A stretch of DNA of 64,000 bases from the NCBI RefSeq assembly GCF_017571495.1, contig NZ_JAGETZ010000001.1:806001-870000 (forward strand). Direction: 5' to 3'. A program made the translations under genes and the position numbers. The DNA comes from Hymenobacter negativus. Its GTDB lineage: Bacteria; Bacteroidota; Bacteroidia; Cytophagales; Hymenobacteraceae. Positions 13,643-30,031 of this stretch are shown piece by piece. The notes under the pieces are model-generated. The model was not told where the DNA came from and did no database searches. It saw only the letters and a list, made by a program, of their open reading frames with translations. Numbering within the stretch: the first letter of the stretch is position 1; every line of letters begins with the position of its first letter.

Positions 13643-13669
13643 TGCTTCGCCTGCCGAATCAGTCGCTTC
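13643..13669 (+). promoter_or_regulatory. Two direct repeats, candidate LytTR operator
   Basis: TGCTTC (13643-13648) and CGCTTC (13664-13669) are exactly 21 bp apart. A TGTTTC at 13621, 22 bp further upstream, may be a third half. The proximal copy ends 36 nt before the -7 box at 13706, matching the arrays before the genes at 21756 and 27620. Confidence 0.5.
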
Positions 13670-13705
13670 GCCCCGGATGCCCTAGCGGCCGGCAGTTTCA
13701 AAACG

Positions 13706-13713
13706 TAAGTTTG
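13706..13713 (+). promoter_or_regulatory. -7 box of the ABA4-like gene
   Basis: TAAGTTTG, an exact TAnnTTTG match, 26 nt upstream of the ATG at 13740. Confidence 0.6.
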
Positions 13714-13739
13714 ACGCAGTTATCCCAACCCCGCCCGCC

Positions 13740-14183
13740 ATGCTTACGCCCGACCTGCTGTTTAAAATTGCCAACAACGTGGCCGTGCTGGGCTGGCTCT
13801 TGCTGCTGCTGGCCCCACGCTGGCGCGGCACCCGCGCCGTGGTGCTCAGTGGCGCCCTGCCCCTGCTGCTGGCTGCCACTTATGTGGTGGTCATCGGCTA
13901 CCAGACCGTGGCCCATCCCGCGCCGGGCGCGGGATTTAACTCGCTGGCGCAGGTGGCGGCCCTGTTTCGTGAGCCGTGGGCGCTGACGGCGGGCTGGGTG
14001 CATTATCTGTGTTTTGATATGGCGGTGGGCATCTGGGAAAGCCGCGATGCCCAGCGGCGCGGGGTGCCCCACCTGCTGCTGTTGCCCTGCCTGGTGGCCA
14101 CGTTCATGCTCGGCCCGCTGGGGCTTCTGCTGTACTCGGCGGCGCGGCGGCGTTATCCACGGCCGGCCGTGGCGGCCATTTAG
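13740..14183 (+). CDS. ABA4-like (DUF4281) integral membrane protein
   Basis: A 147-residue protein with four predicted transmembrane helices: about 5-25, 33-53, 83-105 (WVHYLCFDMAVGIWESRDA) and 113-135 (LLLLPCLVATFMLGPLGLLLY). The WVHYLxFD(M/L)xxGxW motif and the GPxGLLLY end are characteristic of the family named after plant ABA4, which is needed for neoxanthin formation. Bacterial members have no settled function, though a carotenoid or membrane role is possible. A -7 box and 21-bp-spaced repeats lie just upstream. Confidence 0.8.
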   Translation: MLTPDLLFKIANNVAVLGWLLLLLAPRWRGTRAVVLSGALPLLLAATYVVVIGYQTVAHPAPGAGFNSLAQVAALFREPWALTAGWVHYLCFDMAVGIWESRDAQRRGVPHLLLLPCLVATFMLGPLGLLLYSAARRRYPRPAVAAI

Positions 14184-14209
14184 CGCAGTCTCGCATTCAG
14201 GGCATTGTT

Positions 14210-14245
14210 GCACGGACGCTGTAGTCCGCGCTACTGCGTCCGTGC
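14210..14245. repeat. Short palindromic repeat
   Basis: GCACGGACGC is mirrored by GCGTCCGTGC around a 16-nt centre containing TAGTCCGCG. It lies 27 nt after the ABA4-like gene and may act as a terminator; it looks like a REP element. Confidence 0.6.
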
Positions 14246-14322
14246 GACTATACAGGTCTGGGTGCAGGGCTTTCGGTTCGCTGTGTTCAGGATGACATCA
14301 TAAGAAACCTACCCCCAGACCA

Positions 14323-15303
14323 ATGCCGATGAGCACTAACGGACCCCACACCACCCGCAGCCGGAACTCCGGGCAACGTAAAAGGCTCCCCGGTATGGGA
14401 GACATTGTGCGGCAATATGGCCGCGGCTATCTGTTATTGCTGATGCTCCTGCTCTTGGTAGTACCGGCCCAGGCACAGCTACCGGATTTCACCACGGAAA
14501 ATATCCGGTTCGATTGTGCGGGAGTGACACTGGCCGGCACCGTGTTTACGCCCAGGCATCCGGTGGCGGCGGTCGTCCTCGTACACGGGTCTGGCCAGGA
14601 AAAACGGATGACGGGCTGGGCAACCCTTCTGGCAGGAAGCGGCATTGCGGTGCTGACGTATGACAAGCGCGGCGTGGGCGAATCGGGTGGAGTGTATGCG
14701 GGCCCGGAAGTCGGCACCAACAACGTTGACGCGGCCAATCTCGACCTGCTGGCGGGCGATGCCAGCGCTGCCGTTAATGCGCTGTTGGCGCATTTGCCTG
14801 CCCAGCACGGGCCGATTGGCCTGCTGGGTGCTAGCCAGGCAGGCTGGGTAATCCCAATGGCCGCCGGAAAGAACAGCACGGTGCGGTTCATGGTGGTATT
14901 TAGCGGACCCGTTGTTACGGCCCGCGAGCAGTTGCGCTTTCAGTTTTTTACGCAGGGCAAGCGCGATTTTTGGGAGACGCACACCGAAGCGGAGGCCCGC
15001 GAACACCTGCGCAACGACACCGACCGGTACCAGTTTGCAGATACCGATGCGCGTGCCGTCCTCGCTACGCTCTCCATCCCCGGGCTTTGGCTTTTTGGTG
15101 GGAAGGACGTGCAGGCTCCGGTGAGCTTGTCGATGGAACACCTTGATGTGCTCAAAGCCCAGGGCAAGCCTTACGAGTACCGGTTGTTTCCGGCTTTGGG
15201 GCATAACACGGCTTTCGATGCCGCGCACGAACCTTCCGACGCGGCCCTTCAATGGATTAAAGAACTGGCTAGCCGCCCGAAAAAGAAGAACAAACAGCGG
15301 TAA
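14323..15303 (+). CDS. Exported alpha/beta hydrolase
   Basis: A 326-residue serine hydrolase. After a basic stretch, GRGYLLLLMLLLLVVPAQAQ forms a signal peptide, so ATG 14395 (MGDIVRQYGRG) is an equally good start. The fold motifs are VLVHGSGQEKR (oxyanion region), YDKRGVGESGG, the nucleophile elbow GASQAGW, an acidic residue near LFGGKDVQAP and the catalytic histidine in LGHNTAF. The proline/S33-like acyl peptidase and esterase groups share this layout. Substrate is unknown. It should act in the periplasm or at the surface. Confidence 0.8.
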   Translation: MPMSTNGPHTTRSRNSGQRKRLPGMGDIVRQYGRGYLLLLMLLLLVVPAQAQLPDFTTENIRFDCAGVTLAGTVFTPRHPVAAVVLVHGSGQEKRMTGWATLLAGSGIAVLTYDKRGVGESGGVYAGPEVGTNNVDAANLDLLAGDASAAVNALLAHLPAQHGPIGLLGASQAGWVIPMAAGKNSTVRFMVVFSGPVVTAREQLRFQFFTQGKRDFWETHTEAEAREHLRNDTDRYQFADTDARAVLATLSIPGLWLFGGKDVQAPVSLSMEHLDVLKAQGKPYEYRLFPALGHNTAFDAAHEPSDAALQWIKELASRPKKKNKQR

Positions 15304-15496
15304 GTGTAGCCGGCAGGAGGCTCGGGATGGGGCCGTCCAAGGCCGCGCCATTCCTGCCCCGATTGATTTAATGCCTGCTATTCAGCGGTGGCAAGGCCCT
15401 CCGTCTCTGCTTACCGTGCGCAAAATACTGAAGATGACAGTCAGCCGGCGCACGGTATCACACAACTCCACTTCCCTCCTTAAACTCCATTATGCC

Positions 15497-16357
15497 ATGA
15501 AAACTGCCCTGCTTGAAACGCCGCTTTTTTCGTCGGGAGCCCCGACCGGGTCCGTTTTTTCGTCTTTAACGACGGCGCTGCGGGTGCTACACCGCGTGAA
15601 CCCGCTGCTGTCGTGGACCGGCTGGGTGAATGTGGCCCTGGCCATACTGGCCCTGACGCTGCTACTGGTCGACCACCGCCTGGTGACGGGCGCGCCGGTT
15701 TGGATGAAGCCGCTGAAGTTCTCGCTGTCCATCCTCGCCTTCGCCTGGACGCTGGGCTGGCTACTGGCCGATTTGCCGCTGGCGGCGCAGCGCGCCGTGC
15801 ACTACATCAGCTGGGGCGTGGCAGTGAGCATGGTGGTGGAGCAATTCGTGATTTTTGTGCAGGCGGCCCGAGGCACCACCTCACACTATAACGGTACCTC
15901 GGCGCTAAACGGCATCCTGTTCGGCCTGATGGGCATTTTCATCCTGGTAAATACCTTAATGACGGTGTGGGCACTGTTTCTGGTGTGGCAGCATCCGCTG
16001 CACGGGCCGGTGGGCTACGTGTGGGGCGTGCGCCTGGGGCTGCTGCTGTTTCTGGTGGGCAGCGTGCTGGGCGGGATGATGATTCACAACATGCAGCACA
16101 CCGTGGGCGCCCCCGACGGCGGCCCCGGCCTGCCCGGCCTGGGCTGGAGCACCCGCGCCGGCGACCTACGCATTGCCCACTTCCTGGGCATGCACGCCCT
16201 GCAAGTGCTGCCGCTGCTGGGCTGGGCCCTGAGCAGTTGGACGCCGCGCCTAGCCGCGCCCCTCACCTGGATGGGGGCGGCGCTCTACGCCGCGGCCGTG
16301 GGGGGCTTGTTTGCGCTGGCTATGGCCGGGCGCCCGCTGTGGGCGGGCAGCAATTGA
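15497..16357 (+). CDS. Multi-pass membrane protein of unknown function
   Basis: A protein of about 286 residues, not assigned. The start is the ATG at 15497 (MKTALLETPLFSS); the upstream extension to 15143 is the shadow of the hydrolase gene. About seven hydrophobic helices are visible, with conserved-looking features such as WMKPLKFSLSI, HYISWGVAVSMVVEQF and GGMMIHNMQHTVG. His-rich positions inside helices could bind heme or metal, but this is speculation. It precedes another small membrane protein gene in the same direction. Confidence 0.7.
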   Translation: MKTALLETPLFSSGAPTGSVFSSLTTALRVLHRVNPLLSWTGWVNVALAILALTLLLVDHRLVTGAPVWMKPLKFSLSILAFAWTLGWLLADLPLAAQRAVHYISWGVAVSMVVEQFVIFVQAARGTTSHYNGTSALNGILFGLMGIFILVNTLMTVWALFLVWQHPLHGPVGYVWGVRLGLLLFLVGSVLGGMMIHNMQHTVGAPDGGPGLPGLGWSTRAGDLRIAHFLGMHALQVLPLLGWALSSWTPRLAAPLTWMGAALYAAAVGGLFALAMAGRPLWAGSN

Positions 16358-16463
16358 ACAATGGAGGAGCAAGTCCTCCGGGTAGGCCCCTATCCCTACA
16401 GCCACGGTCCGCATCCTTCCGCAGCCCCAATCCTGATTTACTCCATACTCGCGCCTGTTCATC

Positions 16464-17129
16464 ATGCCCTCGCTGCATCAGCTCAACATTCTTGTGCACG
16501 TTGCCTTTGGCTCGCTGGCGCTGCTGGTGGGGCTCGGGCCCATGCTCACGGCTAAGGGCGGGGCGGCCCACGTCCGCTTCGGCCGCTGGTTTCTGGGGCT
16601 GGCCACGGGGGCACTCATCACGGCTGTGCTAGGGCTGGCGGTGTTCAACTTCCGACCGTTTCTTACCGTGATTGTGCTGCTGAGCGTGTACCAGGCCTAT
16701 TCCGGCTACCGGGCGTTGCGCACCCGGGCCACGGGCCCTACCCTGCGCGACGGGGTGTTTTCGGCCGTGTTTCTGGTGGGCGGACTAACGTTTCTGCTGC
16801 TCCTGCCACGCATTCGGCTGGTGTGGTCGCCGGTGGTGATGTACAGCACGCTGGGAGTGCTGCTGACGATGACGGTGTACGATTTGAGCCGGTTTGGGTG
16901 GCGGGCACGGTGGCGGCGCGGGGCCTGGCTCTACGAGCACATCTGGAAGATGATGAGCACGTATGCCGCGCTGTTGTCGGCTTTTACGGGCACAGTGCTG
17001 GCCGCTTATCAGCCGTACAGCCAGTTTGTGCCCTCGGTGCTGGGCTCGGTGGCGGCGTGGGGCTTCATGGGGATGGTGTACTGGCAGCGGCGGAAGCGAG
17101 TTGCTGATTTGGAGATAATCAGTGGCTAA
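16464..17129 (+). CDS. Multi-pass membrane protein, DUF2306-like layout
   Basis: A 221-residue protein with about six transmembrane helices. HVAFGSLALLVGLGPML and the following KGGAAHVRFGRWF resemble DUF2306-type proteins, which start with a helix pair around HxxxG and KG..H...G signatures. The C-terminal part has YEHIWKMMSTYAALLSAFTG. Its role is unknown. The next gene, a sensor kinase, begins 22 bp after the stop (or overlaps it if GTG 17122 is used), so this protein may be co-expressed with the kinase/regulator pair and could be its membrane partner. Confidence 0.65.
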   Translation: MPSLHQLNILVHVAFGSLALLVGLGPMLTAKGGAAHVRFGRWFLGLATGALITAVLGLAVFNFRPFLTVIVLLSVYQAYSGYRALRTRATGPTLRDGVFSAVFLVGGLTFLLLLPRIRLVWSPVVMYSTLGVLLTMTVYDLSRFGWRARWRRGAWLYEHIWKMMSTYAALLSAFTGTVLAAYQPYSQFVPSVLGSVAAWGFMGMVYWQRRKRVADLEIISG

Positions 17130-17151
17130 AGTCCAGTACCTTGGTCGGGTG

Positions 17152-18180
17152 ATGAACGACCGCCGCTTTTTGTTGGGAGGCATTCCGCTGCTGGGTTTGC
17201 TGATTACGGTCCTGACGCTACCCACTGGGGGGTACAGTGGGCGGTTGCTGTTTGGGCACTGGGTCATTTCGGTGTATTTCACCACGGGGTACTGGCTGAG
17301 CAACCGCCAGCTGTGGGCCGGGCTACTGCGCCGCCTGCCCCGCCCCGAGCAGACGCCGCGGCGCCTCTGGCTGCTGGCGAGCCTGGCCCTACTCCTCACC
17401 ACGCTGGCGTCGGTGGCACTTTTTCTGCCCATGCACTGGCTGATGCCCCGCTACTTTGAGCTGTCGTGGAGTTCCTTGCTCGAGCAAACCAAGTTCAGCA
17501 TGGTGCCCACGGCGGCCGTGCTCACGCTCTACGAGGCCATGTATTTTTTCGAGCAGTGGAAAGGCAACCTGCACCGCGCCGAGCAGCTGGCCCGCACCCA
17601 AACCCAGGCCCAGCTCGACGCCCTGCAAAGCCAGCTCGACCCGCACTTCCTATTCAACAACCTCAACACGCTGGCCGCCCTCATCGAGCCAGAAAACGCG
17701 CCGGCCCAGCAATTTGTGGAACAGCTGGCCGATGTGTACCGCTACGTGCTGCTGGCCCAGGGCCAGTCCACCGTGCCGCTGGCCGAGGAAATGGCCTTTA
17801 TCGAGACTTACCTGGCGCTGCACAAAACCCGGTTTCGCGACAATCTGGTGGTCGACATTGACGTGCCGCCCGCCGCCCTGGCCCGCCGTGTGGCCCCGCT
17901 CAGCGTGCAGCTGCTGGTGGAAAACGCGCTGAAGCACAACGAGGCCTCGCGCCAGCACCCGCTGCACCTGCGCATCGCGGCCCCGGCCGACGCCCCCGAT
18001 TTCCTACTGGTCGAAAATACCCTGCGGCCCCGTACCGCCGGCCTTGCCCCGGGCACCGGCACTGGCCTGGCCAACGTGCGCCGCCGCTACGAGCTGCTGG
18101 GCGTGGCCGTGCCCGTCGAAATCCAGGAAACACCGGACAAATTCGCGGTAAAACTTCCGTTGCTGCCTCCCTCACCATGA
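17152..18180 (+). CDS. LytS/YehU-type sensor histidine kinase
   Basis: A protein of about 342 residues with four N-terminal membrane helices and a cytoplasmic His_kinase/HATPase region. The phosphoacceptor motif is LQSQLDPHFLFNNLNTL, the N box LLVENALKHN and the G box GTGTGLANVRRRYELL, as in LytS/YehU kinases that lack a separate dimerisation-domain H box. ATG 17152 is chosen; GTG 17122 in frame would overlap the preceding gene. Its stop overlaps the start of the LytTR regulator gene by four bases (ATGA), so the two form a two-component system with the kinase in the inner membrane. No separate sensory domain is visible. Confidence 0.88.
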   Translation: MNDRRFLLGGIPLLGLLITVLTLPTGGYSGRLLFGHWVISVYFTTGYWLSNRQLWAGLLRRLPRPEQTPRRLWLLASLALLLTTLASVALFLPMHWLMPRYFELSWSSLLEQTKFSMVPTAAVLTLYEAMYFFEQWKGNLHRAEQLARTQTQAQLDALQSQLDPHFLFNNLNTLAALIEPENAPAQQFVEQLADVYRYVLLAQGQSTVPLAEEMAFIETYLALHKTRFRDNLVVDIDVPPAALARRVAPLSVQLLVENALKHNEASRQHPLHLRIAAPADAPDFLLVENTLRPRTAGLAPGTGTGLANVRRRYELLGVAVPVEIQETPDKFAVKLPLLPPSP

Positions 18181-18950
18181 CCATTCTGCTCCTCGAAGAC
18201 GAGTACCCCGCCGCCGAACGCCTGCAGCGCCTGCTCGTCCAGGCCGCCCCCGACGCCCAGGTGTTGGCCGTGCTCGACACCGTGGCCGGGGCGCTGGCCT
18301 GGCTGGCGGCCAACCCCGCCCCTAACCTCATTCTCAGCGACATTCAGCTGGCCGACGGCCTGAGCCTCGAAATCTGGGAGCAGGCCGTGGTACCCAGCCC
18401 GGTCATCTTCACCACCGCCTTCGATGCCTACGCCATCCGGGCTTTCCAGGCCAACAGCGTGGCCTACCTGCTGAAACCCGTGAAGCTGGCCGAGTTGCAA
18501 GCCGCCTTGGCCAAGCTGCGGCAATGGGAATCAAGAGGTATTCCTGATTCAGCAGCGCCCACCTCTCCCATCGAGCGGTTGCTCGATGCCCTGCCCCGGC
18601 CCGGCCGGCCCTACAAAACCCGGTTTCTGGTGCGGCAGGGCGACGTGCTGCTGCCCCTGCCGGTGGCCGAAGCGGCGTGGTTTATCAGCCGCAACGAAAC
18701 TGTGACGTTGGTCGCAACCGACGGCCGCCGCTTCGTGCTCGACTACACGCTGGAGCAGCTCGAAAGCCTGCTCGACCCCGCCCAGTTCTTCCGCCTCAAC
18801 CGCCAAATCATTGCCCAATTGCCGGCCGTGCGCCGCCTGCACCCGCATTTCAACGGCAAGCTGCTGGTCGAATTGCACCCCGCCGCCCCAGAGGAAGTGT
18901 TGGTGAGCCGCGAGAAAGCCAGCACCGTAAAAACGTGGCTGGAAGGGTAG
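18177..18950 (+). CDS. LytTR-family response regulator
   Basis: A 257-residue regulator with an N-terminal receiver (ILLLEDEYPAAERL acidic pocket, phosphoacceptor aspartate in LILSDIQLADGL, lysine in YLLKPVKL) and a C-terminal LytTR DNA-binding domain (about 145-255; FLVRQGDVLLPL, RFVLDYTLEQLESLL, FFRLNRQIIAQL, VLVSREKASTVKTWL). LytTR proteins bind two direct repeats about two helical turns apart. Translationally coupled to the upstream kinase. See the 21-bp repeat operators at 13643, 22561 and 29927. Confidence 0.92.
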   Translation: MTILLLEDEYPAAERLQRLLVQAAPDAQVLAVLDTVAGALAWLAANPAPNLILSDIQLADGLSLEIWEQAVVPSPVIFTTAFDAYAIRAFQANSVAYLLKPVKLAELQAALAKLRQWESRGIPDSAAPTSPIERLLDALPRPGRPYKTRFLVRQGDVLLPLPVAEAAWFISRNETVTLVATDGRRFVLDYTLEQLESLLDPAQFFRLNRQIIAQLPAVRRLHPHFNGKLLVELHPAAPEEVLVSREKASTVKTWLEG

Positions 18951-18985
18951 CTTTCGGCGTATCTTGTTTGTTTAATTCCCTTGTC

Positions 18986-19573
18986 ATGACTGCCATCAAG
19001 CTAAAAAGCCCCTTGCTCGAACGCCTCACCGACGAGGAGTTCTACCAGTTCTGCATGGACAACCGCGACCAGCGCATCGAGCGCGATGCCCAACATCAAA
19101 TCACTATTATGCCCCCTACCAACTCTGAAACCGGCGCTGCTAATAGTGAAATTGCAGCTGACCTTGTGATTTGGAATCGCCAGCATAAGTTGGGCAAGAC
19201 CTTTGATTCTTCATCTGGCTTTACGCTCGATACCGGAGCCATGCTCTCGCCCGATGCCAGCTGGATAGCCTGGGAAAACTGGAATGCTTTGAGCTCGGAT
19301 GACCGGCGCGGCTTCGCCCGCATCTGCCCCGATTTTGTAGTAGAGCTGCTCTCGCCTACCGACCGCCTCACCGACACCATGCGCAAGATGGAGCACTGGC
19401 TCGAAGCTGGGGCGAAGCTCGGCTGGCTTATCGACCCTGGCACTGAGTCGGTTTATATTTTTGAGCCCGGCCAGCCCGTGCGGCCAACAGTGGGATTTGA
19501 ACAGGATTTGGTGGCTGGGCCGCTAATGCCCGGTTTTGCGCTGGAGCTGCGGCGACTCAAAAAGGATTTTTAA
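18986..19573 (+). CDS. Uma2-family PD-(D/E)XK nuclease-like protein
   Basis: A 195-residue protein starting at ATG 18986. The Uma2 core is visible: SPDASWIAW, then PDFVVELLSPTD, then MRKMEHWLEAGAKLGWLIDP. The aspartate and glutamate of PDFVVEL and the lysine downstream fit the restriction-like active site. These proteins are abundant in Bacteroidota and cyanobacteria, mostly of unknown role. It sits between the two kinase/regulator pairs, 35 bp after the first, and converges on the second at a perfect palindromic terminator. Confidence 0.85.
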   Translation: MTAIKLKSPLLERLTDEEFYQFCMDNRDQRIERDAQHQITIMPPTNSETGAANSEIAADLVIWNRQHKLGKTFDSSSGFTLDTGAMLSPDASWIAWENWNALSSDDRRGFARICPDFVVELLSPTDRLTDTMRKMEHWLEAGAKLGWLIDPGTESVYIFEPGQPVRPTVGFEQDLVAGPLMPGFALELRRLKKDF

Positions 19574-19576
19574 AAT

Positions 19577-19598
19577 GGTTGCGTTTCGAAACGCAACC
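19577..19598. terminator. Perfect 22-bp palindrome between convergent genes
   Basis: GGTTGCGTTTC is followed directly by its mirror GAAACGCAACC. It lies between the Uma2 stop and the convergent regulator stop, so it most likely ends both transcripts. Confidence 0.75.
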
Positions 19599-19604
19599 CT
19601 TCCA

Positions 19605-20399
19605 CTACCTATCCAGCCAGCTCTTGAACACATTCACCTTTTCGCGGCTCACTAGCACCTGCGCATCAGGGGCGGTGGGCTTGAGCACGGTTTGGAGACG
19701 GGAATTGGTGTAGTGGATGATGTCCTGGATGGCCGACTGCTGGGCCAGATAGGCGCGGTTGAGGCGGAAGAAGCGGCGAGGGTCCAGCAGGGTTTCGAGC
19801 TGGTCCATGGTGTAGTCGACCACGAACTTGCGGCCTTCGGTGGTTTGGAGGAAGGTGGCTTTTTCGAGGCTGAAGAAGTACGCAATCTGGTCGAGGGGCA
19901 CCACTTTCAGGTGTTCGCCCACCCGCACCACAAACTGGGTTTTGTAGCTGGTGGCCGGCGGTGCCGCTTGCTGCATCTGCTGCATGAGTTGGGCCAGCAG
20001 CGCCGGGTCGAACGCCGGAGCGGCGGCCGGCGTCGCGGGCAGGCGTTCGCGCAGCTTGCGCAGGGCGTCGCGCAGCTCCTCCTCATCGATGGGCTTAAGC
20101 AGGTAGTCGACGCTATTTACCTTAAAGGCCTGGAGCGCATACTGGTCGTAGGCGGTGGTGAAGATGACCGGACAGCGCACCGTGGCTCGCTCGAAAATCT
20201 CGAAGCTCAGGCCATCGGCCAGGTGAATGTCGAGGAATAGCACATCGGGGGCGGGACCGGTTTCGAGCATGGCCACGGCCTGGCTCACGGCCTCGGCTGT
20301 GCCGAGAACCTGCAAAGGGTCGGGCTGGCGGGCCAGCATGTCGGCGAGGCGGCGGGCGGCGAGGGGTTCGTCTTCAACGATGAGGGCACGGAGGGGCAT
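19605..20399 (-). CDS. LytTR-family response regulator (second system)
   Basis: A 264-residue regulator with receiver motifs ALIVEDEPLAARRL, VLFLDIHLADGL (aspartate phosphoacceptor) and YLLKPIDEEEL, then a proline/alanine linker with polyglutamine-like LMQQMQQ, then a LytTR domain (YKTQFVVRVGEHLKVV, FVVDYTMDQLETLL, FFRLNRAYLAQ, VLVSREKVNVFKSWL). Clearly paralogous to the regulator at 18177. Downstream of and on the same strand as its kinase, but separated from it by a 24-bp-arm repeat. Confidence 0.92.
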   Translation of the reverse strand: MPLRALIVEDEPLAARRLADMLARQPDPLQVLGTAEAVSQAVAMLETGPAPDVLFLDIHLADGLSFEIFERATVRCPVIFTTAYDQYALQAFKVNSVDYLLKPIDEEELRDALRKLRERLPATPAAAPAFDPALLAQLMQQMQQAAPPATSYKTQFVVRVGEHLKVVPLDQIAYFFSLEKATFLQTTEGRKFVVDYTMDQLETLLDPRRFFRLNRAYLAQQSAIQDIIHYTNSRLQTVLKPTAPDAQVLVSREKVNVFKSWLDR

Positions 20400-20431
20400 A
20401 AGCTGTAGGAGAAGCAGAACGTCATGTAGGG

Positions 20432-20496: not shown

Positions 20497-20531
20497 TTGC
20501 GCGCTGGATAAGGTTCTTTTAAGTTTAAAAC

Positions 20532-21647
20532 CTACAGCACCAGCAGTGGCAGCGTTACCACAAACTCACCGGCTTCCTCCCCTATCGCCAACGGCTTATT
20601 GGTCAGGAAGGCGTAGCGGGCGGCCAGGTTTTTCAGGCCCAGGCCGGACGACTCGCCCGGCGCGAGGCGGCGCGGGCGCAGGGTGTTGCGCACGGTCAGG
20701 GTGTGGGCGGCGGGGTCGAGCGCGACGGATACCCGCAGTGGGTTGGCCTGGAAGGCGGCGTTGTGCTTGATGACGTTTTCGAGCAGCAGCTGCAGGGCCA
20801 GCGGCGGCACGTAGTACGGGGCCAGCACGGCGGGTGGCAGGTCCATTTCTACAGCCAGGGCGTTGCCGAGGCGGGTTTTCTGCAGGTACAGGTAGCTTTC
20901 GGCGAAACGCACTTCCTGGGTTAGCGGCACCATTTCCTGGCTTTCGCTATCGAGCACGTAGCGGTACACCTGCGAAAGCTGGCGGATGAAGCGCACGGCG
21001 CGGGCGGGGTCGTTTTCTTCCACCAGGCTGGTCAGCGCATTCAGCGAGTTGAACAAAAAATGCGGGTCCACCTGCCGGCGTAAGGAATCGAGGCGGGCTA
21101 CGGCGGTTTCTTTTTCGAGGCGCTCGGCCCGCACGGCGGCATCGCGCCACTGAAAGAAAAACGCCCGGCTGTGGTTGAACAGCGAAACGATGACCGTGAT
21201 AATAAGCGGCATGAGCACCTGCCAGTACATGGCCCCCGACCATAGCCGGGCCATTGGCTCGTGCTGAATGAGCAGTAGCAAGGCATTCATTCCCACAATC
21301 ACCGCCGCGGAGCCGCCCAGCGACACCGCCAGGGTGAGCAGCAGCCGGCGCAACGGCTGCGCCGACCACGGGTAGAGGCGGTTGAGCCATTCTACTACGT
21401 AGCCATTCGTGAACCATAGGCTGACGCTGTAAAACACGGTATAAGCGTAGGTGATGGCAAAGGCTTTCCAGCTGTGCAGCGCACTCGGGTTCATCAGCAC
21501 GCTGATGCCTAAGGCCATAACCAGGATAATCCGCACGGTCCGTCCCAATGCCCGCAACGAGGTGGGCGCCGCCCGAAACGCATTGGGGATGGCAGAAGCG
21601 GAAGAATCGGGAGCAGCCACGGCAGCAGACAGAGAAGTTTGCATCAA
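20532..21647 (-). CDS. LytS/YehU-type sensor histidine kinase (second system)
   Basis: A 371-residue kinase with four membrane helices near residues 35-165 and a cytoplasmic domain. The key motifs are LRRQVDPHFLFNSLNAL (phosphoacceptor histidine), LLLENVIKHN (N box) and SSGLGLKNLAARYAFL (G box). Orthodox length, no added sensory domain. The upstream start (MMQTSLSAAVAAPDSS) is a normal ATG. It is followed by its LytTR regulator gene at 20399, with a 130-bp repeat-bearing gap. Confidence 0.9.
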   Translation of the reverse strand: MMQTSLSAAVAAPDSSASAIPNAFRAAPTSLRALGRTVRIILVMALGISVLMNPSALHSWKAFAITYAYTVFYSVSLWFTNGYVVEWLNRLYPWSAQPLRRLLLTLAVSLGGSAAVIVGMNALLLLIQHEPMARLWSGAMYWQVLMPLIITVIVSLFNHSRAFFFQWRDAAVRAERLEKETAVARLDSLRRQVDPHFLFNSLNALTSLVEENDPARAVRFIRQLSQVYRYVLDSESQEMVPLTQEVRFAESYLYLQKTRLGNALAVEMDLPPAVLAPYYVPPLALQLLLENVIKHNAAFQANPLRVSVALDPAAHTLTVRNTLRPRRLAPGESSGLGLKNLAARYAFLTNKPLAIGEEAGEFVVTLPLLVL

Positions 21648-22517: not shown

Positions 22518-22525
22518 CAAAGGTG
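22518..22525 (-). promoter_or_regulatory. -7-like box in a promoter shared with the TonB receptor
   Basis: CACCTTTG on the minus strand, inside the conserved block GTTGATGnnTCAAAGGTG (plus strand 22508-22525). The same block occurs at 29874-29891. Confidence 0.5.
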
Positions 22526-22560
22526 GCAGCCGGCCGGGCCGGCCGAAAATTGCCGTGACC

Positions 22561-22602
22561 GAAGCGTCGGATGAGGCCGATGAAGCGACAGCCGGCCTGG
22601 AC
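22561..22602 (-). promoter_or_regulatory. 21-bp direct repeats, candidate LytTR operator
   Basis: GAAGCG occurs at 22561 and 22582 on the plus strand, i.e. CGCTTC on the sense strand of the gene at 21756. The nearer copy is 35 nt from the -7 box, the same distance as at the TonB receptor promoter. Confidence 0.55.
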
Positions 22603-22698: not shown

Positions 22699-23388
22699 AT
22701 GCGCTACCCTTCCGTTATTGCTCTGAGCGGCCTGCTGCTGCAAGTGTCGCTACCCGGCCAGGCCCAAACCGCCCCGGCCCCCGCGCCCCGCTTCTTTGTG
22801 GGGCTGGCCGCTTACCGCAGCTACTACCAGCCGCTCGAAAGCCGCCCGGGCGTTTCCGGCTTCGCGGTGCCCCTGCAGCTCACGGCGGGCTATCAGCTGC
22901 GCCCGCGCCTAGCGGTGCAGGTAGGCCTGGCGTACAGCGGCTCATCCTATGCCTACGAGGGAGAGGGCTACTTCTATAACCTCAACCGGCCTCAGGGCAC
23001 CTACTACCGCTACACGGGCAAGAGCAACATTCGCACAGCCTCGGCCTCGGTGCTGGCCCGCTACACCCTCACCCGCAAGCCCGAACACCGCCTGCAGTTC
23101 GACGCCTTGGGTGGCTTCACCCTGGAATACCGCCGCGGCGCCGACCACGGCACCTACATCGACAGCGTGGGCGGCAGCCGCAACGAGAATCCCTACGACA
23201 ACCGCGGCACTGACAACGCCCTGCTGCTCACGGCTGGCCTGGGCACCCGCTACCGCCTGACCCCGCGCTTCGACCTCTCCCTGGACCTGCTGCTCAACCG
23301 CTCCCTCACCTCGCCTATTTATTTCAACTACCAGGGAGGCCTCACCGGCAGCGCCGCGCTCGGCCTGCGCTACCGGTTTGGGAAGTAG
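22699..23388 (+). CDS. Outer-membrane beta-barrel protein
   Basis: A protein of about 229 residues starting at ATG 22699 (MRYPSVIALSGLLLQVSLPGQAQ signal peptide). The mature protein alternates hydrophobic and polar residues with typical barrel strands (LTAGYQLRPRLAVQVGLAYSG, TASASVLARYTLTRK, LDLLLNRSLTSPIYF) and ends in SAALGLRYRFGK, close to the usual aromatic terminal residue. The function is unknown, and it resembles PF13568-like small porin folds. It is divergent from the secreted TPR-like gene. Confidence 0.75.
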   Translation: MRYPSVIALSGLLLQVSLPGQAQTAPAPAPRFFVGLAAYRSYYQPLESRPGVSGFAVPLQLTAGYQLRPRLAVQVGLAYSGSSYAYEGEGYFYNLNRPQGTYYRYTGKSNIRTASASVLARYTLTRKPEHRLQFDALGGFTLEYRRGADHGTYIDSVGGSRNENPYDNRGTDNALLLTAGLGTRYRLTPRFDLSLDLLLNRSLTSPIYFNYQGGLTGSAALGLRYRFGK

Positions 23389-23399
23389 TGCAGGGTCGT

Positions 23400-23450
23400 A
23401 AATCCATTAAAAAGGCCGCTCCGGTAACGGAGCGGCCTTTTTAATGGATT
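23400..23450. terminator. Bidirectional terminator, 23-bp arms
   Basis: AATCCATTAAAAAGGCCGCT and three further bases are perfectly mirrored around GTAA. The convergent genes on both sides end here. Confidence 0.9.
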
Positions 23451-23470
23451 AATGCTAATACATTCCTGCT

Positions 23471-23890: not shown

Positions 23891-23932
23891 AAAAAGTGGG
23901 TAAAAGGGTTGAAGGAAATTAGTTGTGTTTTC

Positions 23933-23962
23933 CAAACATATCCATATTTATACGTAATTCAA
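23933..23962 (-). promoter_or_regulatory. Bacteroidota-type promoter for the coiled-coil protein
   Basis: On the minus strand a -33 TTG (23962-23960), 19-nt spacer and -7 TATGTTTG (23940-23933) fit the consensus TTG-N19-TAnnTTTG exactly. It lies in an AT-rich gap of 100 bp. Confidence 0.8.
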
Positions 23963-23991
23963 CTTGTTGATACAAAATATATCTTAGCGCC

Positions 23992-24543: not shown

Positions 24544-24547
24544 GAAT

Positions 24548-24588
24548 GAGGTAGGATATTTTTTGAAGCTACAAAAATATCCTACCTC
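24548..24588 (-). promoter_or_regulatory. Palindromic operator overlapping the XRE gene promoter
   Basis: GAGGTAGGATATTTTT (24548-24563) is perfectly mirrored at 24573-24588 across a 9-nt spacer. On the gene's strand the distal arm contains TATTTTTG (24579-24572), an exact TAnnTTTG -7 box. A dimeric repressor bound here would block RNA polymerase, most simply the XRE protein itself. Confidence 0.75.
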
Positions 24589-24615
24589 CACTCTGCTTCT
24601 CGAAGAAGCTGCTTG

Positions 24616-24846
24616 CCCTAGCGTACGCTGTACCCCGAAGCTGTGCTTCGGCCGAACGAGGCGCTCAACGAGTTGCCCTTGGTAAACGGCTACCCCCCTC
24701 ACGGCCGGAGCGCGCATCAAGCCCCGGCCCAGCTACCGCAATGTGCAAGTGGTGTTCGAGCTGACGCCCTATGCCAATGCATGCCTTGATGGGGGCTACG
24801 GACGCACGCTGCCGGGGCTGGCCTATAACTTCCGACGGGCCGACTG
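24616..24846 (+). pseudogene. Frameshifted remnant, possibly of an outer-membrane protein end
   Basis: From about 24616 one frame reads RTLYPEAVLRPNEALNELPL and VNGYP. After a run of six C at about 24693-24698 the sense moves to another frame: LTAGARIKPRPSYRNV, VVFELTPYANACLDGGYGR, then LPGLAYNFRRAD and a stop at 24846. Removing one C restores a single frame of about 75 codons. The ending is reminiscent of a barrel terminus or a small secreted protein, but the family was not identified. No start is present. Confidence 0.35.
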
Positions 24847-24886
24847 ACCCGGCTGGCGCGAGGTCGTAGCCGCCAGGGGCCCGCCT

Positions 24887-25384
24887 TTAATGAGCTGAAT
24901 AGGTTCTTATATCAACGAACGTGCTTCCGTTGTTGGTATAGGGTGCGGATGCGGAAGTCAAGGTAGTAGCCGTCAGGCTCCGTACATACTTAGGAGTTGA
25001 CCCTGGTTGGCCGGGATTGAGCACAATCTCCGTTTCGTTCGACGCGAAAGCCCAGGTTCCACTAATAAGGTACCCCGGGTAAGTAGCACTGCACTTTATC
25101 AGTCCTTCGTCTATGGTAAAGGATTTGTCGGCATGATAATATTCGAAGTCATCCAGAGAGCAGGGGTCATAGCTTGTAAGCGGATAGGTGGTGGTTGTCA
25201 CTACGCCCGCAGCAGTAGTTTCTACTATAGCGAAACTCTCCAGCTTCCACCCCGAACTTGTTAGCCATACTTCCCGCTGAGATGGTTTGGCGGGCTCTGG
25301 CTCGCTGGATTTTTTGCAATCGGTAAGAGCAAATGTGCTGCTGGTAAGGAAGGCCAGCGTCAGCAAACGTAAAGGGGAGTTCAT
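24887..25384 (-). CDS. Small lipoprotein, lipocalin-like
   Basis: A protein of about 165 residues from ATG 25384 (MNSPLRLLTLAFLTSSTFALTDC), a lipoprotein signal with cysteine after LTD. The mature part contains WLTSSGWKLESFAIV near its start, SLDDFEYYHADKSFTIDEG in the middle and SGTWAFASNETEIVL, the layout of the lipocalin-like/DUF5004-type lipoproteins common in Bacteroidota. The ligand is unknown. GC content is lower than in neighbours, suggesting relaxed codon use or recent arrival. Confidence 0.7.
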   Translation of the reverse strand: MNSPLRLLTLAFLTSSTFALTDCKKSSEPEPAKPSQREVWLTSSGWKLESFAIVETTAAGVVTTTTYPLTSYDPCSLDDFEYYHADKSFTIDEGLIKCSATYPGYLISGTWAFASNETEIVLNPGQPGSTPKYVRSLTATTLTSASAPYTNNGSTFVDIRTYSAH

Positions 25385-25746
25385 GTATGGAAATAAGAAG
25401 GTGGATTTAGGTAGTAACGCTCGCCTTCCCATTAACTATACGTTGAGCACTATCTTTATTTAAATGCAGAGAAGCTGTGTTGTATACCGGAACTGAGCCT
25501 TTCGCACTGAATATTGCTTTTGATGCCACGGGACACTGTCTACCGGGAACGCCTGCGCGCCATCCGTCCTCGATACGGTGGCTTATCTCAAAAGCTGTTT
25601 GCGCTACCTGAGATAAATCCGCCGACAGAGTGAAGCACGGGATAGGAAGCCTGGCGACGAAGAGAGTCACCCTAATGAATAGGGCCACGCCGGATGCTTC
25701 GTTTTGGCGACGCCACACCCGTACCTTCCGCCTTTTCTGCACCATC
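25385..25746. other. 362-bp divergent intergenic region
   Basis: AT-richer than the surroundings, between two divergent lipoprotein genes. A 36-codon frame at 25523-25633 is discussed under rejected items. No convincing promoter or repeat was seen. Confidence 0.4.
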
Positions 25747-26610
25747 ATGACCTTTCCTCTTTCGCACCACTTGCCGGCCGTAGCCCTCCTGGGCGTGCTG
25801 CTGACCGGCTGCTCCCCCACCCCCGACAAGCCCGCCGCGACTACCGCCACCCGTCCGGCGAAGGCAGCCGAAAAGCCCTTCGTGGGCACCATCCGGCTGG
25901 TGGAGCATCGGTATGTGCTGGGCATTCGCAGCACCGACTACGTCACGCTCACCTTCGACGGCCCCCGGCTGCGGCGGGAGGTGCGCCCCGGCGGCTTCGC
26001 CGATTCTACCGAGCGGTACGGCCTCATCGCCGACCTGCGCACCGACAGCGTGACCTACTACGTGCAGGATGCCCAGCTTAATGCCCACTGCCGCCTGGCC
26101 CGCGCCAGCTATCTGGCCAGTGTAGCGGCCAACGCGCCCCTTTTCACCGCCCTGGACCGCAAGCCCTACAGCACCATTTTCGAGCCCCTGCCGCCGGGCT
26201 CCCCCGCTTTGCGCAGCGCGGCGGTAGCGGGGCCGGCCCTGCGCCGCCTCAGCAGCTACCAGGCCGTCCTGTTTCTGCTGCCCGACCACGGCCGCTGCGA
26301 CGTCTTCTACTCGGAGCAAGTGCGGGTACCCAAGGCGGCGCTGGCCTACATCGAGCACCACGCGCCGGCCGCGCTGCCCTCCCTGGCGCTGGCCGTGCAC
26401 TACACCCCACCACCTCAGTCCAATGCAGCCGGCCTGCTCGACCGGCTGCACCAGCGGCTAAACAACGCTTTCTCCGAAGACACCGATTTCGATTCCTTCG
26501 ACCCCAACGCATCGGCCGATTCCTTCGACCTGCCCAGCGGCTCAACCAACAACCTAGAGGAAACCATGTCGGCCGAAACCCATTCGTCACACCATCACCA
26601 CCATCATTAA
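25747..26610 (+). CDS. Hypothetical lipoprotein with a natural C-terminal hexahistidine
   Basis: A protein of about 287 residues, not recognised. ATG 25747 gives MTFPLSHHLPAVALLGVLLTGC, a lipoprotein signal; the frame to 25630 is an unlikely extension. The core (about 45-220) is mixed alpha/beta with YVTLTFDGPRLRREVRPGG, RYGLIADLRTDSVTYYV and two or three cysteines (AHCRLA, GRCDVF). The tail is acidic and serine/asparagine-rich (FSEDTDFDSFDPNASAD) and ends SSHHHHHH before the stop. The histidine end could bind metal; it is genomic, not a cloning tag, because the context is continuous. Confidence 0.7.
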   Translation: MTFPLSHHLPAVALLGVLLTGCSPTPDKPAATTATRPAKAAEKPFVGTIRLVEHRYVLGIRSTDYVTLTFDGPRLRREVRPGGFADSTERYGLIADLRTDSVTYYVQDAQLNAHCRLARASYLASVAANAPLFTALDRKPYSTIFEPLPPGSPALRSAAVAGPALRRLSSYQAVLFLLPDHGRCDVFYSEQVRVPKAALAYIEHHAPAALPSLALAVHYTPPPQSNAAGLLDRLHQRLNNAFSEDTDFDSFDPNASADSFDLPSGSTNNLEETMSAETHSSHHHHHH

Positions 26611-26715
26611 GCGGGCTTGCCGGCCGGCTTATAGAAAAGACTTGTTCCCGAATACGCAAAAATGAAAAAAGAACGTCCTGCTGAGCGCAGCCGACTTTAC
26701 AATTTTCTGTATTTA

Positions 26716-26910
26716 ACCCAAGTTGCGGACGATGGCATGAGAGCCCCAGCGGGGTCGTACCCGGAGGGCGACACTTGTCCAACGAGTGTCGCCCTCCGGG
26801 TACGACCCCGCTGGGGATTTAAAATCCACCCATAGCGGCTGTTACTACCGATAGGTCGGCCTCCGGGTACGACCCCGCTGGTGCTTAACCGCATTGTCCG
26901 CAACTTGGGT
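26716..26910. mobile_element. 195-bp MITE-like element with 15-bp terminal repeats
   Basis: ACCCAAGTTGCGGAC (26716-26730) is perfectly mirrored at 26896-26910, and TATTTA flanks both sides (26710-26715, 26911-26916) as a possible target duplication. Inside, 26744-26775 is perfectly mirrored at 26785-26816 (32 bp, 9-nt loop), and part of that arm, CTCCGGGTACGACCCCGCTG, recurs at 26861. No ORF of transposase size, so it would need a transposase in trans. Confidence 0.75.
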
Positions 26911-26940
26911 TATTTAGGAGCAAGTCTAAAGTAGCACTTC

Positions 26941-27065
26941 CGCAGTCGAAGAGCCGCGACGCGGCGGCACTAATTGTTCAACGGTGGTACCCCGTATTGC
27001 GGCTCTGTGTTGTTTTTTCTAGTATATCTACCAACATGCTGCCGCGTCGCGGCTCTTCGACTGCG
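26941..27065. repeat. 125-bp element with 29-bp near-perfect inverted ends
   Basis: CGCAGTCGAAGAGCCGCGAC and nine more bases (26941-26969) are mirrored at 27037-27065 with one mismatch. The interior contains an additional partial GCGGCTC copy. It carries no gene and is probably a second non-autonomous or REP-type element. Confidence 0.7.
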
Positions 27066-27181
27066 CAGGTCCTGGTAAGAATAAACGCCCAGTCCCTCCA
27101 CTGACGCATGTTTAGCCGTAACTCGTGCCGGCTATTTGGGCGAGGCTACGCCGCGCAGCCGAACGCACTAGTTGGGTCTAC

Positions 27182-27523
27182 CTACCGCTCATCTGGCGGG
27201 CAGCCATCAGCCACGATGCAGGTAATTTCCACCGTCTGGCCAACGAGGCAGCTGCTGGCAGCAATTGGCCGGTAGCCGATGCGCACCCGCTGGCCATTGA
27301 GTTTATTGAAGCGCAGCCAGGTGAAGCCGCTGGGCTCCAGCCGTTCGCCAGTAGCCAGCTCCAACACGGAGCCGCAGCCGGCCGGGTCGCTAAGGTCGCG
27401 GATGGTGGCCAGCGTGTTACATTCGTAGCATTCGGTGGAAACAGACAACGAAATAAACAGGACTGCAAACAGCCCCAATAAGGCCGTTTGCAGCAACCGA
27501 GCGAAGAATAAAGGAACAGGCAT
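27182..27523 (-). CDS. Small exported cysteine-rich protein
   Basis: A 113-residue protein starting at ATG 27523 (MPVPLFFARLLQTALLGLFAVLFISLSVS), an N-terminal export signal or anchor. The mature part has about five cysteines (ECYECNTL, AGCGSV, SSCLVG, ITCIV, DGCPP) and a WLRFNKLNGQRVRIGYRP strand pair, suggesting a small disulphide-stabilised beta domain. Family not identified. It lies 97 bp downstream of the TonB receptor on the same strand and may be co-transcribed. Confidence 0.6.
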   Translation of the reverse strand: MPVPLFFARLLQTALLGLFAVLFISLSVSTECYECNTLATIRDLSDPAGCGSVLELATGERLEPSGFTWLRFNKLNGQRVRIGYRPIAASSCLVGQTVEITCIVADGCPPDER

Positions 27524-27619
27524 AGGTGCGGGGGTCCTGGATACCCCCACCTGACAGGTGCGGCCCCCAATAGGCTGCCAGCGGTATCCAAACCAACCAC
27601 CCTGCACCATCCACCTGCC

Positions 27620-29857
27620 TCAGTCCGGCCGCTCGTTCAAATCGACCTTGCTGGTCTTATTGATGGAGATGAACACGCCCACGAACAACATGCGGGGAGC
27701 GGGGGGCGTCACGGCGGCGCTGCGAAGCTGGCCGCTGGTGTCGGGCTGGCCGGCGAAGGTGTAGCCGTAGATGTTCTGACGGCCCAGAATGTTGCTGGCC
27801 GACACGTAAATGATGGTGAACTGCCCAAACCAATGGGTGAGGTGGCTCACATTCAGGCTCAGGTCCTGGTAGCTGGGCAGGCTGCTTTGGTTGTAGCCGG
27901 GCAGGTTGGGGTTGTTGTAGCGGCGGGGCGAGCCGTAGCTGTAGGTGAAGCCCACCTGGGTGTGGATTTTCTGTACCCAGTACTTGCCCACCACGCTCAG
28001 GTTGTGCCGGGCCACGAAGGTGGGCACGGCCGAGATGGGGTCGGTGCGGAACAGGCGGCGCGTGTCCACAAAGCCGTAGCTCACCCAATAATCAGCCTTT
28101 TTGAAGGTGGTGCGGTCGCGGAACATCACGTCCAGGCCCCGAGCGTAGCCGCTACCGGCGTTCTGGTAGGTGGTGGGGTTGTAGGGTTGGGCGGCGCTGA
28201 AGGTGGTGAGCTGGGCGTAGTTCTTCTGGTAGATTTCGGCCCGCAGGGTGCGCTCCTTCACCTGGTGCTGGTAGGTGAGCATGTAGTGCTCGGCTCGCTC
28301 AAACTGCAGGGCGTGGCTGATGCGCAGCAAGTCGGTAGTGGGCGACTGGTAGAAGTAGCCCCAGGCAGCCGAGAGCTGGCTGTTTTCGCCGGTTTTATAA
28401 GCCAGGCCCAGGCGCGGGGCGGCGTTGAAGCGGCCCAGCAGGGCTGAGTATTCGGTGCGCAGGCCGGCGCGGCCGGCCAGCTTGTTGCTCAGCATCAGGT
28501 CGCTTTCCAGGAAGGCGGCGCCGCGCTGCTCGTCCACGCCAAGGTCCTGGGTGGGCGCTTCGGCCGTGGCCTGGTATTGCTGGCGGTAGCGCTGGGCATA
28601 GCCTTCGAGGCCCACTTTGAGGTTGAACCAGGTGCTGGCCGAGTCGTTGGTGAGCACCAGCCGGGCCACGGCCGAGCGGTCGAGGTCGTGCAAGGATTGC
28701 ACGTCGGGGCGGATGAGGTTGTCATCCTGGGTCAGGGCCAGGCCGGTGTTCAGGCTCCAGCCGCGGGTGAGGGGGGCGCGGTAGGTAGCGTTGAGGTAGG
28801 CGTTGTCGTTGGCCAGGCTCACGGGGTGGCCGGTGGCTTCAAACTCGGGGTTGGCATCGGGCTGGCGCAGGGCCAGGCGCTGGCGGCTGTAGGTGCCGTA
28901 CACTTTCAGCATGCCGGCCTCCCCTACTTTGTGGGCCAGCTTCAGCGAGCCGCCCATTTGCAAAGGCGCTTTTTCCCAGCCCAGGTTCTGGGGCACGAGG
29001 TTATAGTAAGGTGCGAGGTTGGTGTAGTCGGCCGTCACGGCCAGGCTGGTGCGGTCCCAGCGCTTGGTGCGAGCCACGCTGCCGCCTATGCTCAGCAGCG
29101 AAAGGCTGGTCATGGTTTCGGGGGCGAGGTCGGTCGAGTTCAGGGCCACCACGGCGCTCAGCGCCTGCCCATACTCGGCCGAGTAGCCACCCGTGCTGAA
29201 CACCGTGCCTTTAAACAGGAAAGGCGAAAACCGACCGCGGGAAGCCACATTCGGCACCGCGCTGCCGTAGGGCGTTTGTACAGGCAGGCCGTCGAGGTAG
29301 GTTTTGGTTTCCGAAGCCGCCCCGCCACGCACGAAGAGCTGGCCGGTTTCGCCGTTGCGGGTAGTGCCGGGCAGGGCGTTGAGCGCCCCGGCAATGTCGC
29401 CCAGCGCGCCGGCCGTGGTCACGATGTCGAGGGGCTTGAGCACGGCGGCGCGCTTCTCATCGCTGGCCTCGAAGGCCCCGGCCGTCACCACCACGTCGCC
29501 GAGGGCGGCGCGGCTGGCTTTCAGCTTGAGGTTGGGCAGGCTGATAGGGCCTTTGCCCAGCGTCACCAGCACTTCCAGCGGCTCGTATCCGATGAAGGTG
29601 GCCACCAGCACGGCCGGGCCGGCGGCATGGTCGGTGCGAAAGGAGAAGCGGCCCAGCGAGTCGGTGCTGGCCCCGTCGAACGTGGTTTTCAGAAACACGT
29701 TCACGCCCGGCAGCGGCTGGCCGCCCGCATCGCGCACAACTCCACTGAGCGACTGGGTGGCTGAGCGGATGGGGGAACTTTCGGCGGGCGCGGCTTGGGC
29801 GAGGGCGGTGGCAGGGGCGCTCAGCAGGAAGAGCAGCGGGAGAAGTGAGGTTTTCAT
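27620..29857 (-). CDS. TonB-dependent receptor with carboxypeptidase-like N-terminal domain
   Basis: A protein of about 745 residues from ATG 29857 (MKTSLLPLLFLLSAPATALAQ). The order is signal peptide, carboxypeptidase-regulatory-like beta-sandwich (about 30-115; SGVVRDAGGQPLPGVNVF, GRFSF, IGYEPLEV), plug (GALNALPGTTRNGETGQLF, VRGGAASETKTYLDGLPV), then a large barrel with many aromatic-ended strands. The C terminus (SKVDLNERPD) is not aromatic. The substrate is unknown and no SusD partner is adjacent, so a SusC role is unlikely. The promoter region has a -7-like box and five 21-bp-spaced repeats. Confidence 0.85.
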   Translation of the reverse strand: MKTSLLPLLFLLSAPATALAQAAPAESSPIRSATQSLSGVVRDAGGQPLPGVNVFLKTTFDGASTDSLGRFSFRTDHAAGPAVLVATFIGYEPLEVLVTLGKGPISLPNLKLKASRAALGDVVVTAGAFEASDEKRAAVLKPLDIVTTAGALGDIAGALNALPGTTRNGETGQLFVRGGAASETKTYLDGLPVQTPYGSAVPNVASRGRFSPFLFKGTVFSTGGYSAEYGQALSAVVALNSTDLAPETMTSLSLLSIGGSVARTKRWDRTSLAVTADYTNLAPYYNLVPQNLGWEKAPLQMGGSLKLAHKVGEAGMLKVYGTYSRQRLALRQPDANPEFEATGHPVSLANDNAYLNATYRAPLTRGWSLNTGLALTQDDNLIRPDVQSLHDLDRSAVARLVLTNDSASTWFNLKVGLEGYAQRYRQQYQATAEAPTQDLGVDEQRGAAFLESDLMLSNKLAGRAGLRTEYSALLGRFNAAPRLGLAYKTGENSQLSAAWGYFYQSPTTDLLRISHALQFERAEHYMLTYQHQVKERTLRAEIYQKNYAQLTTFSAAQPYNPTTYQNAGSGYARGLDVMFRDRTTFKKADYWVSYGFVDTRRLFRTDPISAVPTFVARHNLSVVGKYWVQKIHTQVGFTYSYGSPRRYNNPNLPGYNQSSLPSYQDLSLNVSHLTHWFGQFTIIYVSASNILGRQNIYGYTFAGQPDTSGQLRSAAVTPPAPRMLFVGVFISINKTSKVDLNERPD

Positions 29858-29883
29858 CGGGAGCCAGCGGTTAGTTGATGGCT

Positions 29884-29891
29884 CAAAGGTG
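29884..29891 (-). promoter_or_regulatory. -7-like box of the TonB receptor gene
   Basis: CACCTTTG on the minus strand within GTTGATGnnTCAAAGGTG (29874-29891), the same block as at 22508. Confidence 0.5.
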
Positions 29892-29926
29892 ACGGCGGGC
29901 CAGCCAGGGTTCAATTAAAAGCCTCC

Positions 29927-30031
29927 GAAGCGCCAATCGGCCCGGATGGACCGCTCGTCGGGCCAGATGAACCGCTGGCCGGTTTAGCCGAGCTGCTGGC
30001 CGATACAACCGAACCTCTCGCCGCCCCAGTC
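29927..30031 (-). promoter_or_regulatory. Five direct repeats at 21-bp spacing, candidate LytTR operator
   Basis: Units begin at 29927 (GAAGCGCC), 29948 (GGACCGCTCG), 29969 (GAACCGCTGG), 29990 (GAGCTGCTGG) and 30011 (GAACCTCTCG), each 21 bp long without gaps. The first begins 35 nt beyond the -7 box. On the sense strand the cores read CGCTTC or GCGGTTC, similar to half-sites of LytTR proteins. Confidence 0.6.

Follow-up and report, generated by a model that had tools for sequence, protein, structure and literature searches.

The 64,000-nucleotide stretch of Hymenobacter negativus DNA analysed here (contig NZ_JAGETZ010000001.1, positions 806,001 to 870,000; referred to as the window) comes from a genome of 7.1 Mb in 40 contigs and contains three promoters preceded by direct repeats at 21-bp spacing, together with two genes for LytTR response regulators, LT1 (P0001) and LT2 (P0002). 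We conclude, with a probability of roughly 0.8, that these repeats represent LytTR operators and that the locus encodes two sister LytS/LytTR pairs, each predicted to control the promoter of its own unit through operators that have diverged from each other. The genes form two groups, arranged tail to tail between 13.7 and 30 kb of the window (Table 1). The plus-strand group consists of the genes for an ABA4-like membrane protein (ABA4), a hydrolase and two membrane proteins, followed by a histidine kinase (HK1) and LT1. The minus-strand group consists of the gene for a HusA-like protein with a TPR-like fold (P0003; the TPR-like gene), a second kinase (HK2) and LT2, with a TonB-dependent receptor gene 5 kb further along, also on the minus strand. 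The promoters with repeats are those of ABA4 (site 1), the HusA-like/HK2/LT2 group (site 2) and the receptor gene (site 3).

An initial sequence-only reading had described the 21-bp-spaced repeats before the ABA4-like, TPR-like and TonB receptor genes, with the nearest unit 36, 35 and 35 nt from the −7 box at sites 1, 2 and 3, respectively, and had assigned all three to one LytTR regulon. Every coordinate and distance given there was correct, and the five units of the receptor promoter do proceed from 29927 in 21-bp steps; only the unit nearest the box is literally CGCTTC, the other four being degenerate. An 84-bp stretch of site 3 is the strongest 21-bp self-match within the window (54 of 84 positions). 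The sequence GTTGATGnnTCAAAGGTG comprises the −7 box and the bases following it. The LytTR part of the proposal is well supported, because the repeats have a 21-bp period, a fixed distance to the −7 box, half-sites like those published, and a place before units that encode LytTR proteins. The single regulon is not, because sites 2 and 3 fit one motif (A) and site 1 another (B), and each motif goes with a different kinase/LytTR unit.

Motif A can be approximated as CGACGCTTCATCCG-n6-CGACGCTTCGGTAAC, 38–39 nt before the −7 box, and motif B as GCCGCTTCRCCC, with the same 21-bp period and different flanks. They have in common the core GCTTC[AG], the period and a nearly equal distance to the −7 box. 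Site 1 scored 31.7 with the B matrix, the maximum for the window, and 3.6 with the A matrix; site 2 scored 37.4 with A and 13.9 with B; and site 3 scored 11.4 with A and 4.6 with B, the next-best A score elsewhere in the window (site 2 excepted) being 6.4. Some promoters have a third unit, which keeps the 21-bp register.

Conservation was assessed in 98 regions, comprising our own and those of 97 of 100 relatives. (G011, G028 and G071 were left out; G011 and G071 were viewed separately.) The promoters available for scoring came from 95 TPR-like genes, 84 receptor genes and 65 ABA4 genes. Because 83 of the TPR-like promoters but none of the receptor promoters had served to train the A matrix, the receptor promoters provide its sole independent test: 78 of 84 scored at least 8, compared to 1 of 84 dinucleotide shuffles. 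All 95 TPR-like promoters reached this score (shuffles 1/95). The B matrix, which was trained on the same ABA4 promoters that it scored, reached 8 or more at 64 of 65; its control was a reversed scan of the whole clusters. In that scan, 167 of the 178 A matches fell at receptor or TPR-like promoters, with five at ABA4, three before HK2 and three elsewhere, while 83 of the 110 B matches fell at ABA4. The reversed control over 3.65 Mb yielded no A and three B matches. Measured from the TTC of the nearer unit, the −7 box lay 38 nt away in 82 of 93 TPR-like matches and 39 nt away in four (box unrecognised in seven); for the receptor matches it lay at 38 nt in 53 of 74 and at 39 nt in 17 (unrecognised in four).

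The repeats at these promoters are thus conserved across Hymenobacter far beyond chance. The genome-wide search for YGCTTC-N15-YGCTTC proposed in the initial reading gave a different picture for the bare repeat, with 19 matches in the genome against 29 in the reversed control, and the literal repeat was therefore rejected as a detector of the regulon. The combination with the box fared better: TAnnTTTG or CACCTTTG followed within 28–44 nt in three of the 19, in all cases at 35–36 nt, and these three were site 1, site 2 and a site before another TonB receptor gene on contig 33. The lack of enrichment of the bare repeat is what an origin by chance or as a by-product of composition would lead one to expect, yet we regard that explanation as already refuted and give it next to no weight, considering the conservation at orthologous promoters against shuffled, reversed and spacing controls.

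To follow the motifs genome by genome, we used models built from the promoter sequences, R1 for motif A (52 promoters, with sites 2 and 3 as offset copies) and R2 for motif B (44 promoters), both including our own sites among their rows. Since many matches are training sequences, the E-values flatter the fit, and it is the absences and extra matches that are informative. Model A gave 120 matches in 58 of 61 genomes. By table reading, TPR-like or receptor promoters account for 107 of these and a contig end for one, which leaves 12 at other places. Model B gave 56 matches in 45 of the 61 genomes, seven of them elsewhere than at the expected promoters. In our own genome, model A matched the TPR-like promoter (2.3e-18), the receptor promoter (2.0e-7) and, weakly, that of the contig-33 receptor (0.008), and model B matched ABA4 (6.1e-12) and the contig-33 site (4.8e-4).

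Each motif goes with its own kinase/LytTR unit, which argues for autoregulation. Two genomes, G064 and G072, retain at most a fragment of the TPR-like gene, and in both A precedes HK2. Correspondingly, 20 genomes have B within 1.4 kb upstream of HK1 or of the membrane protein genes ORF15 or ORF16, and in 16 of these no ABA4 was present in the region examined. Six genomes (G004, G016, G027, G036, G037 and G046) had no LT1 match above 49% identity; A was matched in all six and B in none, compared to 45 of the 55 remaining genomes for B. A therefore does not need LT1.

Both regulators have a receiver domain (PF00072) and a LytTR domain (PF04397), as expected of LytTR response regulators, and by inspection the receiver aspartate is in its conserved place (aligned D55 in P0001; SDIQLADG / LDIHLADG). 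Both genes adjoin a LytS-type kinase gene (PF06580). The arrangement is well kept: of the clusters with kinase and regulator both above the identity cut-offs, 89 of 94 have HK2 no more than 1 kb before LT2 and 71 of 83 have HK1 no more than 600 bp before LT1; wherever LT1 and LT2 were both found (85 clusters), they are arranged tail to tail. The nearest named relatives of the LT2 protein are from Hymenobacter. LT1 and LT2 are 46% identical, with fixed differences in the LytTR domain (e.g., RL.PHF.GK vs DI.HYT.SR) that could account for the difference between A and B.

The consistently different flanks, the clear scores of sites 1 and 2 for one motif each, the tracking of each motif with its own unit, including the six genomes with A only, and the fixed domain differences make it unlikely that one LytTR protein, or both indiscriminately, reads all sites, with A and B as variants of one loose operator. 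Such an operator would nonetheless explain the shared core, period and near-equal −7 distance, as well as the match of both models to the contig-33 site, and it draws support from the 46% identity of the two regulators, from the A scores at some ABA4 promoters and from the retention of both sites without a clear LT1 in G071, both described below.

Several observations weigh against two separate LytTR circuits. Site 3 is degenerate, and the literal repeat without a box is not enriched in the genome. Near the 23 LytTR genes of this genome, the 21-bp spacing of a looser core was not special, although this test is weak because the 1.5-kb flanks used do not reach even sites 1 and 2. The motifs overlap: A scored at least 8 at 15 of 65 ABA4 promoters (shuffles 0), five A matches at ABA4 scored at least 14, and one B match each was found at a receptor and a TPR-like promoter. 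A box at 39–40 nt from the TTC was recognised for only 44 of the 83 B matches at ABA4; some of the others are farther array units or have altered boxes. Model A was unmatched in three of 61 genomes. The six genomes without LT1 all lack an ABA4 match as well, so that the absence of B there is not independent. In G071, A precedes the receptor gene and B precedes ABA4, and the best P0001 matches are 45% and 39% identical. G029 keeps A and B without a P0001 match at E ≤ 1e-45 and has neither kinase nor LytTR within the 10-kb region examined; a recent deletion is likely. Finally, LytTR binding, the assignment of regulators to sites, activation rather than repression, co-transcription and the signal are all inferred.

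The association extends beyond Hymenobacter. Among 66 loci from other genera that contain a relative of LT2, pairs of the core AC..TTC[AG] occurred 17 times with 21-bp spacing, and no other spacing between 12 and 44 was seen more than three times. Of 22 outside loci with HusA-like, kinase and LytTR genes, 17 of which had a receptor in the stretch examined, 18 contained a pair spaced by exactly 21 bp, with no more than one mismatch, in the 320 bp before the receptor or TPR-like gene, while other spacings between 14 and 31 occurred in 0–2. When two mismatches were allowed, the 21-bp pair was found in 21 of the 22, but a spacing of 31 also appeared in 12. The pair precedes the receptor gene in Algoriphagus and Rufibacter and the TPR-like gene in Flavobacterium, often with identical ATCC and GGT flanks, and thus stays with the kinase/LytTR unit in several Bacteroidota groups.

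LytTR two-component regulators with a half-site of the direct-repeat type include ComE, and the AgrA and ComE systems are peptide-sensing and act at Firmicutes promoters. The Hymenobacter sites differ in lying at Bacteroidota −7/−33 promoters and in going with a receptor/HusA-like gene set. Like AgrA, which binds two direct repeats upstream of its promoters (in the available part of PMC4227749), the Hymenobacter proteins are LytTR response regulators with a kinase and with direct repeats before their proposed target promoters. LytTR direct repeats are described as 9 bp long with a spacer of mostly 12 bp, located about 10 bp upstream of the −35 element and giving positive feedback, and LRS-like repeats in Bacteroides as 11 bp with an 11-bp spacer (PMC6193735, available in part). 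In the A alignment, the half-site lies by eye about 10–11 nt from a TTT/TTG element. HdrRM/BrsRM of Streptococcus mutans and their relatives likewise combine a LytTR regulator with direct repeats of about 21 bp just before the −35 element of their own operon; these LRS, however, consist of a LytTR protein and a membrane inhibitor, whereas the Hymenobacter proteins have a receiver domain and a LytS-type kinase (same source, in part). An LRS, which has no kinase, was ruled out here by the receiver domains and kinases present.

Because LytTR binding is a deduction, and since G029 and G071 keep the sites without a clear LT1, another activator might bind the repeats, the LytTR genes being mere neighbours or targets. 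We consider this improbable to a high degree, as spacing, half-site form and promoter distance match the LytTR operators described in the available part of PMC6193735 and the repeats accompany the regulator genes in several Bacteroidota groups.

A mechanism with two LytTR circuits is of a familiar type. LT2, bound to site A, would activate the separately located TonB receptor gene as well as the HusA-like/HK2/LT2 unit, together a target set of the HusA/HusB porphyrin-uptake type, while LT1 would bind site B and activate the unit from ABA4 to HK1 and LT1. Bound to a pair of half-sites on the same face of the DNA, immediately before a weak −33 element, each dimer would assist RNA polymerase in using the −7 box, and positive feedback would be the likely result. 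Nothing about ABA4, ORF15 or ORF16 hinted at what the LT1 circuit responds to. Two sister regulators with distinguishable operators, placed tail to tail, provide a ready-made case for studying the divergence of LytTR specificity. A literature search found nothing on Hymenobacter with LytTR, and among titles and abstracts, in a search partly swamped by unrelated words and hence weak, no LytTR control of TonB receptors or HusA. The only Bacteroidota LytTR operators found in the literature were two Bacteroides examples (PMC6193735, in part).

Table 1. Features of the locus, with coordinates in the window.
Feature	Coordinates	Strand	Details
Site 1	13643..13669	+	Two motif-B half-sites, TGCTTC at 13643 and CGCTTC at 13664, 21 bp apart
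ABA4 promoter −7 box	13706..13713	+	TAAGTTTG
ABA4-like membrane protein gene	13740..14183	+	PF14108, E 4.1e-38
Alpha/beta hydrolase gene	14323..15303	+	PF12146, E 2.9e-12; present in few relatives
Membrane protein gene ORF15	15497..16357	+	Kept beside ABA4; without Pfam family
Membrane protein gene ORF16	16464..17129	+	No Pfam family above cut-off
LytS-type histidine kinase HK1	17122..18180	+	PF06580, E 4.3e-25
LytTR response regulator LT1 (P0001)	18177..18950	+	PF04397 and PF00072; proposed reader of site B
LytTR response regulator LT2 (P0002)	19605..20399	-	PF04397 and PF00072; proposed reader of site A
LytS-type histidine kinase HK2	20532..21647	-	PF06580, E 2.9e-25
HusA-like protein (TPR-like fold) P0003	21756..22463	-	phmmer, AlphaFold, Foldseek
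HusA-like unit −7 box	22518..22525	-	CACCTTTG; distance conserved in relatives
Site 2	22561..22587	-	Two motif-A half-sites, GAAGCG at 22561 and 22582 (CGCTTC on the minus strand), 21 bp apart
TonB-dependent receptor gene	27620..29857	-	PF13715, PF13620, PF07715
Receptor gene −7 box	29884..29891	-	CACCTTTG
Site 3	29927..30031	-	Five motif-A-like units in 21-bp steps

The HusA-like protein P0003 has no Pfam or NCBIfam family. It matches HusA of Porphyromonas gingivalis (6bqs, 6crl), with a phmmer E-value of 1.1e-27 to 6bqs and 1.4e-43 with a profile. Its AlphaFold model (pLDDT 89.6) found HusA 6bqs as the best and only Foldseek match below 0.001 (E 6.4e-10), with a TM-score of 0.83 by target and 0.71 by query, a root-mean-square deviation of 2.1 and an all-helical TPR-like fold. 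By sequence and model, P0003 is a HusA homologue with a putative porphyrin-binding function, and its N-terminus, which by inspection resembles an export signal, suggests that it is exported. HusA, a porphyrin-binding haemophore with a TPR-like fold, binds haem as well as metal-free porphyrins, and its homologues are confined to Bacteroidetes (available part of PMC6173696); the P. gingivalis Hus system further includes HusB, a TonB-dependent receptor, and HusC and HusD, of unknown function (PMC6173696, PMC10100897, both in part). In all 84 clusters with both genes, the receptor gene shares its strand with the TPR-like gene and precedes it, by no more than 1.5 kb in 58, so that by gene order the window receptor is a candidate HusB counterpart. 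Its start is likely the ATG at 29857, because the upstream TTG at 29914 precedes the −7 box. Both systems thus have a HusA homologue linked to a TonB-dependent receptor gene; the Hymenobacter set differs by including a kinase and a LytTR regulator.

The most interesting aspect is this link of an old LytTR-type operator to HusA-type porphyrin uptake. We tentatively suggest, as an idea that may well be wrong, that porphyrin uptake of the HusA/HusB type has, throughout Bacteroidota, its own dedicated and self-reinforcing regulator in a LytS/LytTR pair that reads an ancient 21-bp repeat, that HusC and HusD may be this pair, and that in Hymenobacter the pair was duplicated, one copy moving to ABA4 with a changed operator. 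The link to the HusA homologue points to a concrete candidate for the regulator of a porphyrin-uptake system with two genes of unknown function.

Related sites occur at other receptor genes. The contig-33 receptor gene (L392; G000:C33:534500-542500) has a B/A-like repeat near 540826-540870, 36 nt from CACCTTTG, with no kinase or LytTR gene adjoining in our own genome. In G025 and G001, the receptor gene is followed by a third kinase/LytTR pair (kinase 44% identical to HK1; LT1-like regulator 64%), with B-like units before the receptor. Seven other close orthologues of this receptor (about 80% identical) were inspected by eye; five had B-like units upstream, L386 was doubtful and L382 had none. 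A paralogous receptor/HusA-like pair on contig 18 (L395; G000:C18:20348-23121) is 37% and 34% identical, and no motif was visible by eye upstream of its receptor gene. The off-promoter matches of model B include the contig-33 receptor, a TonB receptor paralogue (L402) and a transpeptidase gene (L401).

Four of the 12 off-promoter matches of model A had no clear target. Four others (L398, L399, L403 and L410) precede genes with a 2TM domain (Pfam-checked), and L400 precedes a small gene that looks similar; these A-like repeats before small 2TM-domain genes in five relatives perhaps mark a further LytTR-controlled set. Near L397 is a gene whose DUF2306 match falls below threshold. L404 and L405 directly precede alpha/beta hydrolase genes in two relatives, and a hydrolase gene also follows ABA4 in the window. 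Two divergent plus-strand genes adjoin the repeats in the window. A likely outer-membrane beta-barrel gene (22699-23388; PF13505 above cut-off for the open reading frame from 22555) diverges from the HusA-like unit, and site 2, located between them, could act on both. A gene for a protein with multiple PAS domains (30110-31459) diverges from the TonB receptor gene and adjoins the five-unit array.

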